DNA of 64,000 nt. Origin: Falsirhodobacter xinxiangensis. Lineage in GTDB: Bacteria; Pseudomonadota; Alphaproteobacteria; Rhodobacterales; Rhodobacteraceae. The notes under the pieces are model-generated. The model was not told the origin of the DNA. It worked only from the letters and a program-made list of their open reading frames with translations, and did not search any database. Positions 8,626-18,625 of this stretch are shown piece by piece. Position 1 is the stretch's first letter. Every line of letters starts with the position of its first letter. Both the position numbers and the translations under genes were made by a program. The stretch spans positions 1 to 64,000 of the forward strand of contig NZ_SMYN01000011.1 in NCBI RefSeq assembly GCF_004959935.1. Direction: 5' to 3'.

Positions 8626-8700
8626 TGGAGCGGGCGAGGCGATGCGAACGCCCGACCCTAACCTTGGCAAGGTTATGCTCTACCCCTGAGCTACGCCCGC
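8626..8700 (-). tRNA. tRNA-Gly (GCC), copy with altered T-loop
   Basis: The sequence equals the two upstream copies except at 8644. There the T-loop reads TTCGCAT instead of TTCGAAT, changing the universally conserved A58 to C. The anticodon GCC, acceptor stem and encoded CCA are intact. It is the last of three in transcription order. Function is doubtful because A58 forms the reverse-Hoogsteen pair with T54. Confidence 0.9.
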
Positions 8701-8714
8701 ACTCCAAATCCAGA

Positions 8715-8789
8715 TGGAGCGGGCGAGGCGATTCGAACGCCCGACCCTAACCTTGGCAAGGTTATGCTCTACCCCTGAGCTACGCCCGC
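8715..8789 (-). tRNA. tRNA-Gly (GCC)
   Basis: A complete 75-nt tRNA with acceptor GCGGGCG/CGCCCGC, anticodon loop CTTGCCAAG (GCC), canonical T-loop TTCGAAT and encoded CCA. Second of three tandem genes with an 89-bp period and identical spacers. Confidence 0.97.
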
Positions 8790-8803
8790 ACTCCAAATCC
8801 AGA

Positions 8804-8878
8804 TGGAGCGGGCGAGGCGATTCGAACGCCCGACCCTAACCTTGGCAAGGTTATGCTCTACCCCTGAGCTACGCCCGC
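8804..8878 (-). tRNA. tRNA-Gly (GCC)
   Basis: Identical to the copy at 8715-8789 and the first in transcription order. The spacer after it is identical to the next one, showing recent tandem duplication. Confidence 0.97.
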
Positions 8879-13019: not shown

Positions 13020-15362
13020 ATGAACCGTTTCGATGAAGATGACGCCTTCGAGGCCGCAGTTCCGCTGAGCCAGCGCGCCATGGCCGCGCGGCCGATGCCC
13101 TATATGGACGATCTGAACCCGGCGCAGCGCGCGGCAGTAGAGACGCTGGATGGCCCGGTGCTGATGCTGGCCGGGGCGGGAACGGGCAAGACCAAGGCGC
13201 TGACGGCGCGAATCGTGCATCTTTTGCAGACCGGCAAGGCGCGCCCGAACGAGATTCTGGCCGTGACCTTCACCAACAAGGCCGCGCGAGAGATGAAGGA
13301 CCGCGTGGGTAGGATGCTGGGCGGCATCGAGGCGCTGCCGTGGATGGGCACCTTCCATTCGATCAGCGTGAAGATCCTGCGCCGTCATGCGGAACTGGTC
13401 GGGCTGAAATCGAACTTCACGATTCTGGACACGGACGACCAGATCCGGCTTTTGAAGCAACTGATCGTCGCCGCCAATATCGACGAGAAACGCTGGCCCG
13501 CGCGGATGATGGCGGGAATCATCGACGGCTGGAAGAACCGCGCATGGACGCCGCGCCATGTGCCGTCATCCGAAGCCGCGGCCTTCAATCACCGCGGGAC
13601 CGAGATTTACGAGCAGTATCAGGACCGGCTGAAGGAGTTGAACGCCGTCGATTTCGGCGATCTGCTGCTGCATGTGCTGATGATTTTCCAGACATGGCCG
13701 GACGTGCTGGACCAGTATCAGCGGTGGCTGCCCTATATCCTCGTGGACGAATATCAGGACACCAACGCGGCGCAATATCTGTGGCTGCGGCTGCTGGCGC
13801 AGGCGAGAAAGAACATCTGCTGCGTGGGCGACGACGACCAGTCGATCTATGGCTGGCGCGGGGCCGAGGTGGGCAACATCCTGCGGTTCGAAAAGGACTT
13901 TCCGGGCGCGAAGGTGATCCGGCTGGAACAGAACTACCGTTCGACCGAACATATCCTTGCCGCTGCATCGGGGGTGATCGCGGCGAATGCGGGACGGCTG
14001 GGCAAGACGCTTTGGACCGATGCGACGGGCGGCGAGAAGGTGCGCCTGATCGGCCATTGGGACGGCGAGGAGGAGGCCCGCTGGATCGGCGACGAGATCG
14101 AATCGTTGTCCCGCGGCGCACGGGGGATGGAGCCGATCGGGCTGGACCGAATGGCGATTCTGGTCCGCGCCTCGCACCAGATGCGCGCGTTCGAGGATCG
14201 ATTCCTGACCATCGGCTTGCCCTATCGCGTGATTGGCGGGCCGCGATTCTATGAGCGGTTGGAGATCCGCGACGCGATGGCCTATTTCCGGCTGGCCGTG
14301 TCGCCCGACGACGATCTGGCGTTCGAGCGGGTGGTGAACACGCCCAAGCGCGGCCTTGGCGACAAGGCGCAGCAATCGATCCAGCGCGCGGCGCGAGATG
14401 CCGGCGTGGGGCTTTTGCAAGGTGCGCAGGCTTTGCTGGCGCAGGGCGGAATCGGTGGCAAGGGCACGGGGCAGCTTCGGCAATTCGTCGAAGGGGTCGG
14501 GCGCTGGCACGGTGCGGTGCTGTCGGGGGATGACCACGTCCGGCTGGCGGAGACGATCCTGGACGAATCCGGCTATACCGCCATGTGGCAGAACGACAAG
14601 ACGCCCGAAGCGCCGGGGCGGCTCGAGAACCTGAAGGAACTGATCAAGGCGCTGGAGCAGTTCGAGAACCTGCAAGGATTCCTCGAACATGTTGCGCTGA
14701 TCATGGAAAACGAAAGCGGCGAGGCGGGCGAGAAGGTCAGCATCATGACGCTGCACGCGGCCAAGGGGCTGGAATTTCCGGCGGTGTTCCTGCCGGGATG
14801 GGAAGACGGGCTGTTCCCGTCGCAGCGATCCATGGACGAGTCGGGATTGAAGGGGCTGGAGGAGGAGCGGCGGCTGGCCTATGTCGGCATCACCCGCGCC
14901 GAGGAGCTTTGCACGATTTCCTTTGCGGCGAATCGGCGGGTCTATGGCCAGTGGCAATCGGCGCTGCCGTCGCGGTTCATCGACGAATTGCCCGAAACGC
15001 ATGTCGAAGTGCTGACCCCGCCGGGGCTGTATGGCGGCGGATACGGTGCGGCTTCGGGTGCGATGGAGCATCGGGTGGCCGGCGCCGACGTCTACAACTC
15101 GCCGGGATGGAAGCGGATGCAGGACCGGGCTGCGACGCGGTCGGTGAACCAACCGCGCGAGGGCGGGGGCATCGTGATCGACCTGAAGGCGGTATCGCCC
15201 TTCAGCGAAGGCGACCGGGTGTTCAGTCAGAAGTTCGGCTATGGCACTGTGCAGGGGGTCGAAGGCGACAAGCTGGACGTCGCCTTCGACAAGGCCGGGA
15301 CGAAGAAGATCGTGGCGAGCTTCGTTGTCTCTGCAGCTGCTGCGGATGACGTGCCGTTCTGA
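13020..15362 (+). CDS. uvrD: ATP-dependent DNA helicase UvrD/PcrA
   Basis: A 780-residue superfamily 1A 3'-5' helicase for nucleotide-excision and mismatch repair. Motifs in order: Walker A AGAGTGKTKA (residues 51-60), VTFTNKAAREMKDR, Walker B LVDEYQDTNAAQY (about 240), VGDDDQSIYGWRGAE, LEQNYRST (about 300), TLHAAKGLEFPAVFLPGWEDG (about 580) and YVGITRAEELCTIS. A C-terminal Tudor-like region contains GDRVFSQKFGYGTVQ, which in PcrA/UvrD contacts RNA polymerase. Monocistronic, preceded by a LexA box and followed by a bidirectional terminator, so it is likely SOS-inducible. Confidence 0.96.
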   Translation: MNRFDEDDAFEAAVPLSQRAMAARPMPYMDDLNPAQRAAVETLDGPVLMLAGAGTGKTKALTARIVHLLQTGKARPNEILAVTFTNKAAREMKDRVGRMLGGIEALPWMGTFHSISVKILRRHAELVGLKSNFTILDTDDQIRLLKQLIVAANIDEKRWPARMMAGIIDGWKNRAWTPRHVPSSEAAAFNHRGTEIYEQYQDRLKELNAVDFGDLLLHVLMIFQTWPDVLDQYQRWLPYILVDEYQDTNAAQYLWLRLLAQARKNICCVGDDDQSIYGWRGAEVGNILRFEKDFPGAKVIRLEQNYRSTEHILAAASGVIAANAGRLGKTLWTDATGGEKVRLIGHWDGEEEARWIGDEIESLSRGARGMEPIGLDRMAILVRASHQMRAFEDRFLTIGLPYRVIGGPRFYERLEIRDAMAYFRLAVSPDDDLAFERVVNTPKRGLGDKAQQSIQRAARDAGVGLLQGAQALLAQGGIGGKGTGQLRQFVEGVGRWHGAVLSGDDHVRLAETILDESGYTAMWQNDKTPEAPGRLENLKELIKALEQFENLQGFLEHVALIMENESGEAGEKVSIMTLHAAKGLEFPAVFLPGWEDGLFPSQRSMDESGLKGLEEERRLAYVGITRAEELCTISFAANRRVYGQWQSALPSRFIDELPETHVEVLTPPGLYGGGYGAASGAMEHRVAGADVYNSPGWKRMQDRAATRSVNQPREGGGIVIDLKAVSPFSEGDRVFSQKFGYGTVQGVEGDKLDVAFDKAGTKKIVASFVVSAAAADDVPF

Positions 15363-15412
15363 TCGTCGCCTTCTTCGCGTAGCTGCCGCCCTTATCCAAA
15401 ACCGCCAAACGG

Positions 15413-15435
15413 AAAAACTCCCCATGGGGAGTTTT
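15413..15435. terminator. Bidirectional terminator between uvrD and the cuckoo RNA array
   Basis: A nearly perfect palindrome, AAAAACTCCCC then ATGGGGAGTTTT, giving a GC stem flanked by A and T runs on both strands. It can end uvrD transcription on the plus strand and the sRNA array on the minus strand. Confidence 0.75.
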
Positions 15436-15462
15436 GCTGCATGCATTGACGCTGAAATGGAA

Positions 15463-15981
15463 AACGGCGGCACCCAGGGAGGAGGAGGGGTGCCGCCGTT
15501 CCGAACGTCCGGCCCAGGGAGGAGGAGGGGCCGTCGTTGCTACGAAACACCGCCCAGGGAGGAGGAGGGGCGATGCTTCAGTCCGCGGTCCCCTGGGAGG
15601 AGGTAGGAGACCGAAGAGGGTTGCGGCAAGCCCAGGGAGGAGGAGGGGCCGCCGCATCGACGGTTCCCAGGGAGGAGGAGGGGAACCGCAGACCGTGCAG
15701 GAACCGAAGTTCCCGTATTTTTCGGCGACGCTCCAGGGAGGAGGAGGGAGCGTCGCCTGGACTATGATGGCCAGGGAGGAGGAGGGCCATCGCAGCGTTC
15801 TATCTGTTGCGGCGACCCCAGGTAGGAGGAGGGGGTCGCCGCGGGTCCGATCGGCCCAGGGAGGAGGAGGGGCCGTCCAAACATCGGTCGAGGCTTTTGC
15901 CTCATATAGGGTGCGACGACGTCAGGGAGGAGGAGGACATCGTCGCTTTTTCTGAAAGGCCCAGGGAGGAGGAGGGGCCTT
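15463..15981 (-). ncRNA. Tandem cuckoo (CcsR-type) sRNA array: twelve hairpins with CCTCCTCCC-type loops
   Basis: Twelve inverted repeats, each with its own stem but a common loop, lie directly downstream of a DUF1127 gene on the same strand. In transcription order they are 15956-15981, 15913-15946, 15852-15875, 15809-15842, 15766-15791, 15724-15757, 15661-15688, 15622-15656, 15586-15613, 15551-15572, 15510-15533 and 15463-15500. Ten loops contain CCTCCTCCCTG. Those at 15586 (CTCCTACCTCCTCCCA) and 15809 (CCTCCTCCTACCT) are variants. Stems mostly alternate short (5-8 bp) and long (11-12 bp), and gaps within pairs are 4-13 nt, so the natural reading is six two-hairpin sRNAs. In the 15913 hairpin one position is a G-U pair only if the minus strand is the RNA. 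Rhodobacter sphaeroides CcsR1-4 follow a DUF1127 gene (ccaF1) in the same way and are cut from a common transcript. Confidence 0.85.
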
Positions 15982-15989
15982 GCAGGAAA

Positions 15990-16199
15990 TCAGTTGCCGT
16001 AGGCGGCTTCGCGTGCCACGCTGCGGATCGACGAGCGGGTGATGCCAAGATCGCCCAGTTCGCGCACCGTCAGCAGGTTCAGTTCAGCGACGGTCTGGTT
16101 GAAGACCCGGCGGCGTTCGATTGCGGCCTTGATCGAACGAACGATGGCTGCGAAGCCGTCGAGTTGCAGTTCGTTGCCGCGGGTAATTGCCTGTGCCAT
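15990..16199 (-). CDS. DUF1127 small basic protein, host gene of the cuckoo sRNAs
   Basis: A 69-residue protein starting MAQAITRGNELQLDGFAAIV and ending in the DUF1127 signature FNQTVAELNLLTVRELGDLG then ITRSSIRSVAREAAYGN. In Rhodobacter sphaeroides the DUF1127 protein CcaF1 is an RNA-binding protein made from the transcript that also yields the CcsR sRNAs, and it affects their maturation. Only eight bases separate this stop from the first hairpin here, so co-transcription is very likely. AGAGG lies upstream of the ATG. I looked for a heat-shock promoter above 16200: a TTGACC and a CTTGG are present, but neither has a convincing -10. Confidence 0.88.
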   Translation of the reverse strand: MAQAITRGNELQLDGFAAIVRSIKAAIERRRVFNQTVAELNLLTVRELGDLGITRSSIRSVAREAAYGN

Positions 16200-16459
16200 C
16201 TGGGCGCCTCTTTCATCCGTATCGCGGTCCGTCCATCCGGTCCCGCTCTGTTGAAGCCAAGATGCGTGTTTTGCTGCGTCTGCACAATCCCGCGCTTGGT
16301 CAATTCCGCCATGCAGCATCCGCATGGCTGTCCACGGCGGTGATCCGTGGCGGGCAGGTTTGCCGGAAACTTGGGCGGTATGAGGACGGTCTGGCCCTCT
16401 CCCCTTGCGTCTGGCGCAGTTCTGCACAAGTTGAGCGCAAGACAGTAAGGGAGCCAGCC

Positions 16460-17521
16460 ATGTCCGTGACGCGCGAATCCGTTCTTGCCGCCCTGTCGGG
16501 AATCGCGGTTCCCGGCGGAACCCTGACGTCGCGCGATCTTGTGCGCGCGCTGGTGGTCGATGGCGGGCAGGTCCGTTTCGTGGTCGAGACGTCATCGGCG
16601 GAGGAAGCGCGCGCGATGGAGCCGGTGGTCAAGGCGGCAGAGGTGGCGCTGCGGGCGGTGCCCGGCGTCACCGACGTCTCGGTCGTTCTGACGGCGCATG
16701 GTCCGGCGAAGAAGGCGCCCAGTCTGAAGATCGGCGGGCATCCCACGCCGCAGCAGGGACCGCAGAAGGTCAGTGGGGTGGACCGCATCATCGCCGTGGG
16801 TTCGGGCAAGGGCGGGGTGGGCAAGTCCACCGTCGCTTCGAACCTTGCCGTGGCCCTGGCCCGGCAGGGGCGCCGTGTCGGGCTTCTGGATGCGGATATA
16901 TATGGTCCGTCGCAACCGCGCATGATGGGCGTGTCGAAGCGTCCGGCCTCGCCCGATGGCAAGACGATCATCCCGCTGCAGGCGCATGGCGTGACCATCA
17001 TGTCCATCGGCCTGATGGTGAAGGAGGAGGAAGCCATCGTCTGGCGCGGTCCGATGCTAATGGGCGCCCTGCAACAGATGCTGGGCCAGGTGGCCTGGGG
17101 CGAGTTGGACGTGCTGATCGTGGACCTGCCGCCGGGCACGGGCGATGTGGCGATGACCCTGTGCCAGCGCACGCATCTGACGGGGGCGATCGTGGTGTCC
17201 ACGCCGCAGGACGTCGCGCTGCTGGATGCGCGCAAGGCGCTGGATATGTTCAGCCGGCTGAAGACGCCGGTGCTGGGGCTGATCGAGAACATGTCCTCCT
17301 ATGTCTGTCCCAACTGCGGGCATGAGGCGCATATCTTCGGTCATGGTGGCGTGGCGGCCGAGGCGCAGGCGCATGGCATCCCGTTCCTTGGCGAGCTGCC
17401 ACTGGACCTTTCCGTGCGGATCGCGGGTGACTCCGGTGCCCCCATCGCGGCGGGCGAGGGGCCGATCGCGGACGCCTATGCCCGCCTTGCCGATCGTCTG
17501 GTGAAGGGCGGTATGGCCTGA
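16460..17521 (+). CDS. Mrp/ApbC-type iron-sulfur cluster carrier ATPase
   Basis: A 353-residue P-loop protein. It has an N-terminal MIP18-like (DUF59) domain of about 90 residues, then a ParA/MinD-type ATPase with the deviant Walker A GSGKGGVGKST (about residue 115) and DADIYGPSQPRMMGV. The CPNCGHEAHIFG segment (about residue 283) carries the CxxC thought to bridge a 4Fe-4S cluster between two subunits. It transfers Fe-S clusters to apoproteins. I start at ATG 16460, which has AAGGGAG upstream. The longer frame has no family similarity before it. It is followed by the regulatory region of the division cluster. Confidence 0.93.
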   Translation: MSVTRESVLAALSGIAVPGGTLTSRDLVRALVVDGGQVRFVVETSSAEEARAMEPVVKAAEVALRAVPGVTDVSVVLTAHGPAKKAPSLKIGGHPTPQQGPQKVSGVDRIIAVGSGKGGVGKSTVASNLAVALARQGRRVGLLDADIYGPSQPRMMGVSKRPASPDGKTIIPLQAHGVTIMSIGLMVKEEEAIVWRGPMLMGALQQMLGQVAWGELDVLIVDLPPGTGDVAMTLCQRTHLTGAIVVSTPQDVALLDARKALDMFSRLKTPVLGLIENMSSYVCPNCGHEAHIFGHGGVAAEAQAHGIPFLGELPLDLSVRIAGDSGAPIAAGEGPIADAYARLADRLVKGGMA

Positions 17522-17523
17522 TC

Positions 17524-17681
17524 CGGGATCGGGTGGGACGGTCGGGAAAATCTGGGAAACCACCACCACACGCTCGAATCACGATGGCGGGATCACGACC
17601 AAACGGGGCGTGATCCGAGGTGCATACAATTTTAGCGATAGTTTCTCGCCCTGATCCTGCCGAAATTGGGCGAAAGTGGGA
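17524..17681 (+). promoter_or_regulatory. Candidate MraZ boxes, upstream set
   Basis: Five-base boxes of the form (T/C)GGGA start at 17524, 17534, 17543 and 17553, spaced 10, 9 and 10 bp. A second pair (TGGGC, TGGGA) starts at 17667 and 17677, also 10 bp apart. MraZ of E. coli binds TGGGN repeats with a 10-bp period, so these are plausible MraZ sites, though they are far from mraZ itself. Several CCACA motifs (17688-17732) follow without clear phasing. Confidence 0.4.
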
Positions 17682-17787
17682 AACTTGCCACAGCACCACA
17701 AATTGGGTGTGGAACCACAAAATACAACCACATCTTGTTTCACCCCTTGGAGCTCGACGGGGGATTCCTGCCGATAGACTGCCATGG

Positions 17788-17853
17788 TCCCGGAATGTTC
17801 CAAATCCATCCCAACTTTTTCCTTTGCGTCCCAGTCAATCCCATGTCATTCCT
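17788..17853 (-). promoter_or_regulatory. Candidate MraZ operator: seven helically phased boxes
   Basis: Boxes TYCCN (plus-strand reading) start at 17788 TCCCG, 17798 TTCCA, 17809 TCCCA, 17819 TTCCT, 17829 TCCCA, 17839 TCCCA and 17849 TTCCT. The spacings are 10, 11, 10, 10, 10 and 10 bp. Read on the minus strand they are GGGA-type boxes with a one-turn period, the pattern bound by the MraZ ring. They end just before the expected 5' end of the mraZ leader RNA, so MraZ could repress its own cluster. Confidence 0.55.
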
Positions 17854-17859
17854 ACCTCA

Positions 17860-18071
17860 CGACGACGAGGGCGGCAGTTGAACAGGGGCGACAAAGACCC
17901 CGAAACGGCAAAAAACCTTTAGGTTTCATACAGGCAACCGCTTTCGTCCACACAAGAGATCCGGCGCGCAGGCGAGCAGACATCCCCCAGATGGCTTTGC
18001 GCAGCAGGACGCACCCAGCGATGGGACAGACCGGCGGATCGAGCAGTGGCAGCCGCTCGATCCGCCGTTTT
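17860..18071 (+). ncRNA. UpsM-like sRNA from the mraZ 5' leader
   Basis: Between the phased boxes and mraZ lies a leader of roughly 260 nt with a strong terminator 47 bp before the mraZ start. In Rhodobacter sphaeroides the dcw cluster has such an extended leader. Most transcription stops at the terminator and yields the abundant, roughly 206-nt sRNA UpsM. Position, terminator and length agree here. The 5' end is approximate, as I see no clear -10/-35 pair. An internal AAACCT/AGGTTT hairpin lies near 17914-17930. Confidence 0.65.
18032..18071 (+). terminator. Leader terminator (attenuator) before mraZ
   Basis: A perfect 13-bp stem, CGGCGGATCGAGC (18032-18044) with GCTCGATCCGCCG (18055-18067), then TTTT. 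It should end most transcripts as the UpsM-like RNA. Read-through is needed to express the division cluster. Confidence 0.9.
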
Positions 18072-18118
18072 CCGTTCAGGGATACCCCTTGGGCGGCGGG
18101 CAGTCGGGAAACGGAACG

Positions 18119-18625
18119 GTGGCAGAGGCGTTCAGAGGCGAGTTCAACCAGAGGGTTGATGCGAAGGCGCGGGTGCTTATCCCCGTGACTTTCCGCCGCG
18201 TGCTGGAAGCCGGAGATCCCGGATCGCAGCGCCCCCGCATCGTGATGGTCTATGGCGACCCGCGCCGCCAATTCGTCGAATGCTATACGGTCGAGGAGAT
18301 GACGGCGCTTGAGGCCCGCATCCTCCAGCTTCCCGCTGGCACGCCGCAGCGCCGCCTGCTGGAGCGGAACTACATCACCCTTTCGACCACCATCGAGGTG
18401 GATGAGGATGGCCGCATCGTGCTGCCGCCCAAGGTCCGGGAAAAGCTGGGATTGGCGCAGGGCGACATCGGCGCGGTGGAGTCGATCTTTGCCGGAACGC
18501 TGAACACCTTCCAGATCTGGAAGCGCGACGCTTTCGAGGCTGATCTGGCCGAGAAGGAGGCCGAGGAGGCCGCGTTGCTGGAGGGCGGCATCGACATGCT
18601 GACCCTTCTGCCGCCGCAGGTGTGA
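18119..18625 (+). CDS. mraZ: Transcriptional regulator MraZ
   Basis: A 168-residue protein with two MraZ/AbrB-like domains. The first is [20 protein letters not shown] and the second, near residue 85, is [20 protein letters not shown] followed by a KVREKLGL segment. Each carries the conserved D-x-x-(G/A)-R core. MraZ forms a ring that binds phased repeats and controls the dcw cluster. It is longer than E. coli MraZ by a C-terminal acidic tail ([14 protein letters not shown]). I prefer GTG 18119, which puts the first domain at the N-terminus. A TTG at 18089 is possible and would add ten Gly-rich residues. Confidence 0.9.

Follow-up and report, generated by a model that had tools for sequence, protein, structure and literature searches.

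Behind a small DUF1127 gene of Falsirhodobacter xinxiangensis lies a run of short inverted repeats, and the locus raises the questions of what these repeats encode, how unusual their number is, and what controls their expression. The window analysed is the whole 64,000-nt stretch at the start of contig NZ_SMYN01000011.1, and coordinates refer to it unless another locus is named.

Anatomy of the array

The original prediction of twelve hairpins with differing stems and a near-identical loop on the DUF1127 strand was borne out. The hairpins occupy positions 15461-15989 of the minus strand, and the loop is exactly CCTCCTCCC in 11 of the 12, hairpin 4 being the sole exception. The stems are all different and form six weak/strong pairs, with single-hairpin folds, by pair, of -15/-17, -15/-24, -14/-21, -16/-18, -16/-19, and -10/-28 kcal/mol. 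The features of the locus and its flanks are as follows:

16460-17521: Mrp/ApbC-like P-loop gene, on the other flank of the DUF1127-array locus
15990-16199, minus strand: ccaF1-like DUF1127 gene, 69 aa (Pfam PF06568, E 3.2e-8), its stop codon abutting hairpin 1
15948-15989, minus strand: hairpin 1, unit 1, weak
15913-15946, minus strand: hairpin 2, unit 1; unit 1 matches Rfam CcsR1 at 60.6 bits
15890-15903, minus strand: mini-hairpin GAGGC-AAAA-GCCTC (plus-strand reading GAGGC-TTTT-GCCTC), between units 1 and 2
15845-15882, minus strand: hairpin 3, unit 2, weak
15809-15842, minus strand: hairpin 4, unit 2, strong, loop CCTCCTACC
15761-15796, minus strand: hairpin 5, unit 3, weak
15724-15757, minus strand: hairpin 6, unit 3, strong
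15700-15713, minus strand: mini-hairpin GGAAC-TTCG-GTTCC (plus-strand reading GGAAC-CGAA-GTTCC), between units 3 and 4
15656-15693, minus strand: hairpin 7, unit 4, weak
15622-15656, minus strand: hairpin 8, unit 4
15582-15617, minus strand: hairpin 9, unit 5, weak, 10-nt loop variant, not decaying
15543-15580, minus strand: hairpin 10, unit 5, strong
15510-15533, minus strand: hairpin 11, unit 6, weak, 6 bp
15461-15502, minus strand: hairpin 12, unit 6, strongest, TTTT tail
15414-15435, unstranded: palindrome AAAACTCCCCATGGGGAGTTTT, between the array and the convergent uvrD-type gene
13020-15362: uvrD-type gene, convergent with the array

Hairpin 12 is likely to be a terminator as well as an sRNA hairpin, and the palindrome AAAACTCCCCATGGGGAGTTTT is possibly a second, two-way terminator. 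On the minus strand of the window, 28 of 105 CCTCC sites lie in a good stem and 23 of these 28 fall inside the array, a count to be read in the light of most array loops containing two such sites each; on the plus strand a good stem is found at one of 52 sites, and the array is thus beyond chance.

Both mini-hairpins that had been noted between units are present. Among six congeners compared by eye, the one at 15890-15903 has changed yet pairing stems in three and is unchanged in the sibling genome, and the one at 15700-15713 is found outside the window in the sibling genome only. The suggestion that the pair at 15551-15613 is decaying fails, as hairpins 9 and 10 have pairing counterparts in at least four of the six congeners (L059, L014, L019, L015; by eye), where the stems are mostly altered and hairpin 9 is again a shorter-loop variant.

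Elsewhere in the window, an MraZ-like ORF (18089-18625, by eye) heads a dcw-type cluster with a long leader (17640-18625, plus strand). The sRNA UpsM of R. sphaeroides is reported to derive from the dcw 5'UTR (PMC8625941), so that two sRNA loci may sit within about 2 kb here.

Relationship to known cuckoo RNAs

Identity with the CcsR (cuckoo) RNAs is supported by covariance-model matches and by the DUF1127 linkage. The search that the original prediction had called for gave a divided answer: the minus strand has five matches to Rfam CcsR1 (RF02791), but the best of them (60.6 bits, E 7e-14) lies below the gathering score of 65.3, and the RNAs are therefore termed CcsR-like cuckoo members here and are not filed under RF02791. 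Rfam ar14 (RF02344) gives three matches, the best of which, at 51.8 bits, is below the gathering score of 58.8. At Rfam gathering thresholds the whole window yields three tRNAs only; three tandem tRNA-Gly (GCC) genes lie at 8626-8878 on the minus strand.

In R. sphaeroides, published accounts describe CcsR1-4 as arising from the 3'UTR of ccaF1, a 71-aa DUF1127 gene with an RpoHI/RpoHII promoter, through RNase E processing that involves CcaF1, and give the name CIN1 locus to the combination of DUF1127 and CcsR-like sRNAs (PMC10253847, PMC8625941, PMC8307010). The RNAs are also reported to be shaped by RNase E and PNPase (PMC7866481) and to affect C1 metabolism and pyruvate dehydrogenase (PMC8625941). 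The window locus resembles this system (RSP_6037) in having a DUF1127 gene followed directly by two-hairpin units with CCUCCUCCC loops and a terminator at the 3' end, but differs in having six units, all with different stems, against the four CcsR RNAs counted in the papers. Invariant CCUCCUCCC loops, variable stems, and linkage to a short DUF1127 gene are likewise described for the cuckoo RNA family and CIN1 loci (PMC10253847, PMC10746234). The ar14/NfeR1 RNA of Sinorhizobium has the same loop in three hairpins, reported to be an anti-Shine-Dalgarno seed that acts in trans, with silencing at the ribosome site shown for NfeR1; unlike the window RNAs, it is free-standing and has its own promoter (PMC10746234).

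The two marks of cuckoo RNAs and the CIN1 arrangement are both found in the window, namely adjacent CCUCCUCCC-loop hairpins with variable stems and a short DUF1127 gene adjoining them on the same strand. The locus is very probably a ccaF1-CcsR-type operon (cuckoo RNAs, CIN1 arrangement), which is a known kind of locus. The cuckoo RNAs of Reinkensmeier and Giegerich (2015) reportedly have two to four adjacent hairpins, and it is in array length that the family differs from the window.

Array size, pairing, and RNA strand across the family

For the family survey, a one-hairpin covariance model (R1) was built from 41 of 86 candidate hairpins; these were selected for having stems, and the 95% pairing figure that rests on them is no proof of structure. 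At E 0.1, R1 finds matches in 124 of the 149 family genomes drawn. In a class-wide draw of 240 genomes at E 0.01, seven match, three within the family and four outside it with one weak match each; R1 is tuned to the family, and absence elsewhere (e.g., of rhizobial ar14) does not follow from this draw. The array sample comprised 61 arrays from 60 genomes with a DUF1127 ORF just upstream (G019 contributed two), loci lacking a DUF1127 match and second copies of a locus being left out. The distance from the DUF1127 stop codon to the first hairpin is 20 nt or less in 51 of the 61.

Array size ranges from 2 to 17 hairpins with a median of 9, and is at least 12 in 14 arrays and above 12 in nine. The claim that the window has more units than the described locus is doubtful, although the papers count four CcsR RNAs: comparison of unit number shows a six-unit array whose size is ordinary within the family. 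The arrays of six congeners have 12, 6, 8, 10, 10, and 10 hairpins, with recognisable counterparts whose stems are changed but still pair (by eye). Genome G081, by inference R. sphaeroides or a near relative, has 14 hairpins in seven units (five of them near-identical) compared with the four CcsR RNAs counted in R. sphaeroides papers; its DUF1127 protein is 71 aa long, and it matches CcsR1 at 106 bits. An array expanded beyond anything known was considered and is ruled out by the survey and G081.

The six-pair reading is upheld by a pair grammar that extends throughout the family. Among the 165 pairs of the 38 even-sized arrays (the 23 with odd numbers were not used), the more stable hairpin is the second in 154, mean energies being -13.5 and -22.0 kcal/mol, and median gaps are 6 nt within pairs and 30 nt between them. 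Higher A+T content in between-unit spacers, a possible hint of RNase E, was not found (41% between units, 48% within). Identical hairpins two places apart occur in 11 of the 61 arrays, a sign of fresh pair duplication. A T-run follows 44 of the 61 last hairpins and 14 of 492 inner ones, and the last hairpin usually doubles as a terminator. These observations mark the weak-plus-strong pair as the unit and give a rule for the whole family: units of one weak and one strong hairpin, repeated to make 2-17 hairpins, with the terminal hairpin as terminator.

The strand of the RNA can be read from stem mismatches. The asymmetry first noticed at one stem position amounts in the window to six G-U against one A-C (p 0.13 alone), and across 553 family hairpins to 344 against 39 on the DUF1127 strand. 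The latter count uses Watson-Crick-only geometry; stem-extension scoring gives a biased 571:37. This excess marks the DUF1127 strand as the RNA, and is not expected of DNA palindromes. Together with further observations it makes it very improbable that the array works at the DNA level, whether as REP/BIME-like repeats, as palindromic terminators, or as a recombination array, a notion that the tandem near-identical units in relatives and the position of the palindromes between convergent genes might otherwise encourage; the loop sequence is also conserved on the DUF1127 strand, the place behind DUF1127 is fixed in 61 arrays, and known sRNAs share the same plan.

Promoter architecture

Upstream of the DUF1127 gene, four promoter features are proposed:

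16306-16316, minus strand: palindrome CTGCATGGCGG upstream of the -35, one mismatch to CTGCNNNGCAG, candidate PhaR site
16282-16287, minus strand: proposed -35, TTGTGC
16273-16284, minus strand: TGC-rich element TGCAGACGCAGC at the -35/spacer, candidate PhaR site
16259-16264, minus strand: proposed -10, CATCTT (commonest family form CATGTT)

The proposed window promoter reads TTGTGC-N17-CATCTT, and those of many relatives end in CCCATGTT, which we take to resemble heat-shock -10 boxes. TTGTGC and the -10 region following it are found upstream of 59 of the 61 arrays, in a block with the approximate consensus CTGCATNGCAGCATTG-N12-ATTGTGCANNTGCAGCATTTGCCCCATGTT. A sigma-70 scan of 15350-16480 gave no promoter-like site. 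The conserved promoter is proposed to be of the stress type (RpoH-like).

Association of the palindromes with phaR

The palindrome CTGCNNNGCAG is given as the R. sphaeroides site of PhaR, and the same source describes S. meliloti phasin promoters in which two palindromes flank the -35, a layout similar to that of the array promoters (PMC12542648). Repression of the sRNA MmgR (ar8) by PhaR in S. meliloti is reported there as well, and provides a precedent for PhaR control of an sRNA, although MmgR belongs to a different RNA family, ar8, from the window RNAs (PMC12559287). Among the matches listed in literature searches for CcsR/CcaF1 or DUF1127 together with PhaR, no paper linking them was seen, and PMC10253847 and PMC12501420 mention neither 'PhaR' nor 'polyhydroxybutyrate'.

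The window genome carries phaR (PF07879, E 1.4e-27, at G000:C45), which is found in 57 of the 60 array genomes. In the 58 arrays of phaR-bearing genomes, TGCANNYGCAGC is present in 53 (0 of 503 background blocks), CTGCNNNGCRG in 51 (8 of 503), and one or the other in all 58 (8 of 503); exact CTGCNNNGCAG occurs in 37 (3 of 503) and is missing from 21. The three array genomes lacking phaR, the congeners G002, G003, and G004, keep TTGTGC in their promoters and have neither TGC-rich element. Among 394 family genomes drawn, 15 lack phaR, and a hairpin search in 14 of these (all but G003) matched in nine. Arrays of four, three, and two hairpins are present in G009, G551, and G604, which are near-complete (97% or more), and neither element occurs in any of the three; two further near-complete genomes, G120 (no hairpin match) and G166 (one weak match), could not be scored. 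TGCANNYGCAGC is therefore found in 0 of 6 near-complete phaR-lacking array genomes versus 53 of 58 (Fisher 6e-6; 2e-4 with the three congeners counted once).

The main contrary datum comes from four genomes of lower completeness (71-89%) that gave no phaR match; all four have CTGCNNNGCRG and two have TGCANNYGCAGC. In these, phaR may be absent from the assembly, but the completeness cut-off was set after they had been seen. With no cut-off, TGCANNYGCAGC is present in 2 of 10 genomes without a phaR match versus 53 of 58 (p 7e-6), and either element in 4 of 10 versus 58 of 58 (p 2e-6).

A uvrD-type protein tree built from 30 genomes does not unite the six phaR-lacking genomes in a single clade (AU p 4e-5; the branch of G551 is long). 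Their phaR-lacking state needs five changes on the best tree, with two independent contrasts strongly supported. The site follows phaR in 1.9 of these two contrasts and never goes the opposite way, two being too few for a tree-based sign test to reach significance. G005 has phaR and no PhaC_N match and keeps the site, which indicates that the site goes with the regulator and not with the polymer synthase. In the window genome, exact CTGCNNNGCAG also stands upstream of phaC and of a phasin-like ORF, named by position alone, between phaC and phaR; it was not found in three of the six phaR neighbourhoods read (G005, G006, G016).

The palindromes could instead belong to another regulator or form part of the sigma-factor promoter itself, their loss with phaR reflecting general promoter decay in small-genome lineages. 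The second element does overlap the -35/spacer, five of the six phaR-lacking genomes are only 2.7-3.1 Mb, the well-supported contrasts are few, and the four less complete genomes retain a site. Decay would, however, have to spare TTGTGC in G002-G004 while removing both palindromes, and in two phaR-bearing congeners of similar size, G005 (3.2 Mb) and G006 (3.0 Mb), TGCANNYGCAGC is retained along with an upstream palindrome that is exact or has one mismatch; a different regulator would have to share a site equal to the published PhaR consensus. This explanation is possible but doubtful. Since the sites are present with phaR and, among near-complete genomes, lost without it, the operon is probably gated by PHB status, with PhaR as mediator, in addition to an RpoH-type sigma factor, which is a new link predicted from sequence.

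Copies outside DUF1127 arrays

Ten DUF1127-free two-hairpin loci, with gaps of 1-6 nt, occur in eight genomes: G000, G001, G124 (three loci, two of the same sequence), G122, G155, G146, G127, and G100. The pair of the window genome (L058:2969-3040, equivalent to G000:C4:16968-17039, plus strand) lies between TetR-type and EamA-type genes and is also found in the sibling genome G001 (L016). Such solitary loci support the pair as a functional unit. Loci without DUF1127 can also hold more than two hairpins: L026, L039, and L056 have six, six, and four hairpins, and L340, the array of G551, has three with no DUF1127 match in front. Single-hairpin loci lay mostly outside the survey.

Nine of the ten solitary pairs have CTGCNNNGCRG or TGCANNYGCAGC within 230 nt, two of these being the same sequence and L016 having it only at -228; neither was found within 230 nt of L058. 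No such site was found within 480 nt of L026, the six-hairpin array of phaR-bearing G029. At L155 (Yoonia litorea), a six-hairpin array has PhaR-like sites only 60-91 nt in front of it, which leaves no room for a DUF1127 gene between.

Copies of this kind bear on whether the array acts mainly in cis, as a stabilising 3'UTR or a sponge titrating the DUF1127 protein, rather than as anti-Shine-Dalgarno RNAs acting in trans. The first hairpin adjoins the stop codon, and CcaF1 is reported to bind RNA and to affect CcsR maturation and levels (PMC10253847, PMC8307010), as a sponge might suggest; yet two-hairpin copies exist apart from DUF1127, in the window genome among others, and NfeR1 loops are described as repressing in trans (PMC10746234). 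A mainly cis-acting role is accordingly unlikely.

Related hairpins also occur in viral sequence. Two IMG/VR contigs, L241 (5196-5318; 63.6 kb) and L259 (5113-5233; 65.3 kb), carry ar14/NfeR1-type triple anti-Shine-Dalgarno hairpins scoring 79 and 81 bits with ar14 (cut-off 58.8), within phage replication modules encoding a helicase, a Cas4-type exonuclease, a polymerase clamp, and a methyltransferase. The triple-loop pattern was found in 56 viral stretches, 45 with at least three chained hairpins, and at least one (L275) resembles coding repeats; gene neighbours were read for L241 and L259. The L259 copy had no match in a phage GenBank set, and none of the papers listed in a literature search on these hairpins mentions 'prophage'. 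Cuckoo RNAs may thus be carried by phages.

Proposed mechanism and implications

Returning to trans-acting RNAs, we infer a single minus-strand transcript that would start at the RpoH-like promoter near 16260-16290 and encode the DUF1127 RNA-binding protein followed by a 3'UTR of six two-hairpin units. On the model of R. sphaeroides, RNase E, helped by the DUF1127 protein, would cut it into small RNAs, and the last hairpin would help to terminate transcription. The exposed CCUCCUCCC loops, which copy the anti-Shine-Dalgarno sequence, would repress mRNAs with GGAGG-type ribosome sites; that they pair broadly with such sites, as first suggested, is plausible and has a direct precedent in NfeR1 (PMC10746234), and many units would raise dose and redundancy. 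A perfect 9-nt loop complement precedes ATG at eight places in the genome, one being the array's own plus strand; four of the others open ORFs of at least 30 aa, of which two are long (394 and 326 aa), and these places are too few for a regulon to be named.

PhaR, a PHB-granule-binding regulator, would also control the promoter through the two TGC-rich palindromes, tying the RNAs to the carbon-storage state. With a sign guessed from phasin genes, PhaR would lower the operon when PHB is scarce, and granules would titrate PhaR as PHB accumulates. We lean towards the view that across the Rhodobacteraceae the anti-Shine-Dalgarno (cuckoo) operon belongs to the PhaR regulon, such that titration of PhaR by PHB granules frees the ccaF1-array promoter, carbon storage and RpoH stress jointly set the dose of ribosome-site-masking RNAs, and duplication or loss of units tunes that dose between species. 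If true, control by a PHB sensor would explain the presence of a carbon-flux regulator inside a stress operon, and would provide a directly testable link between stress-induced anti-Shine-Dalgarno RNAs and carbon storage.
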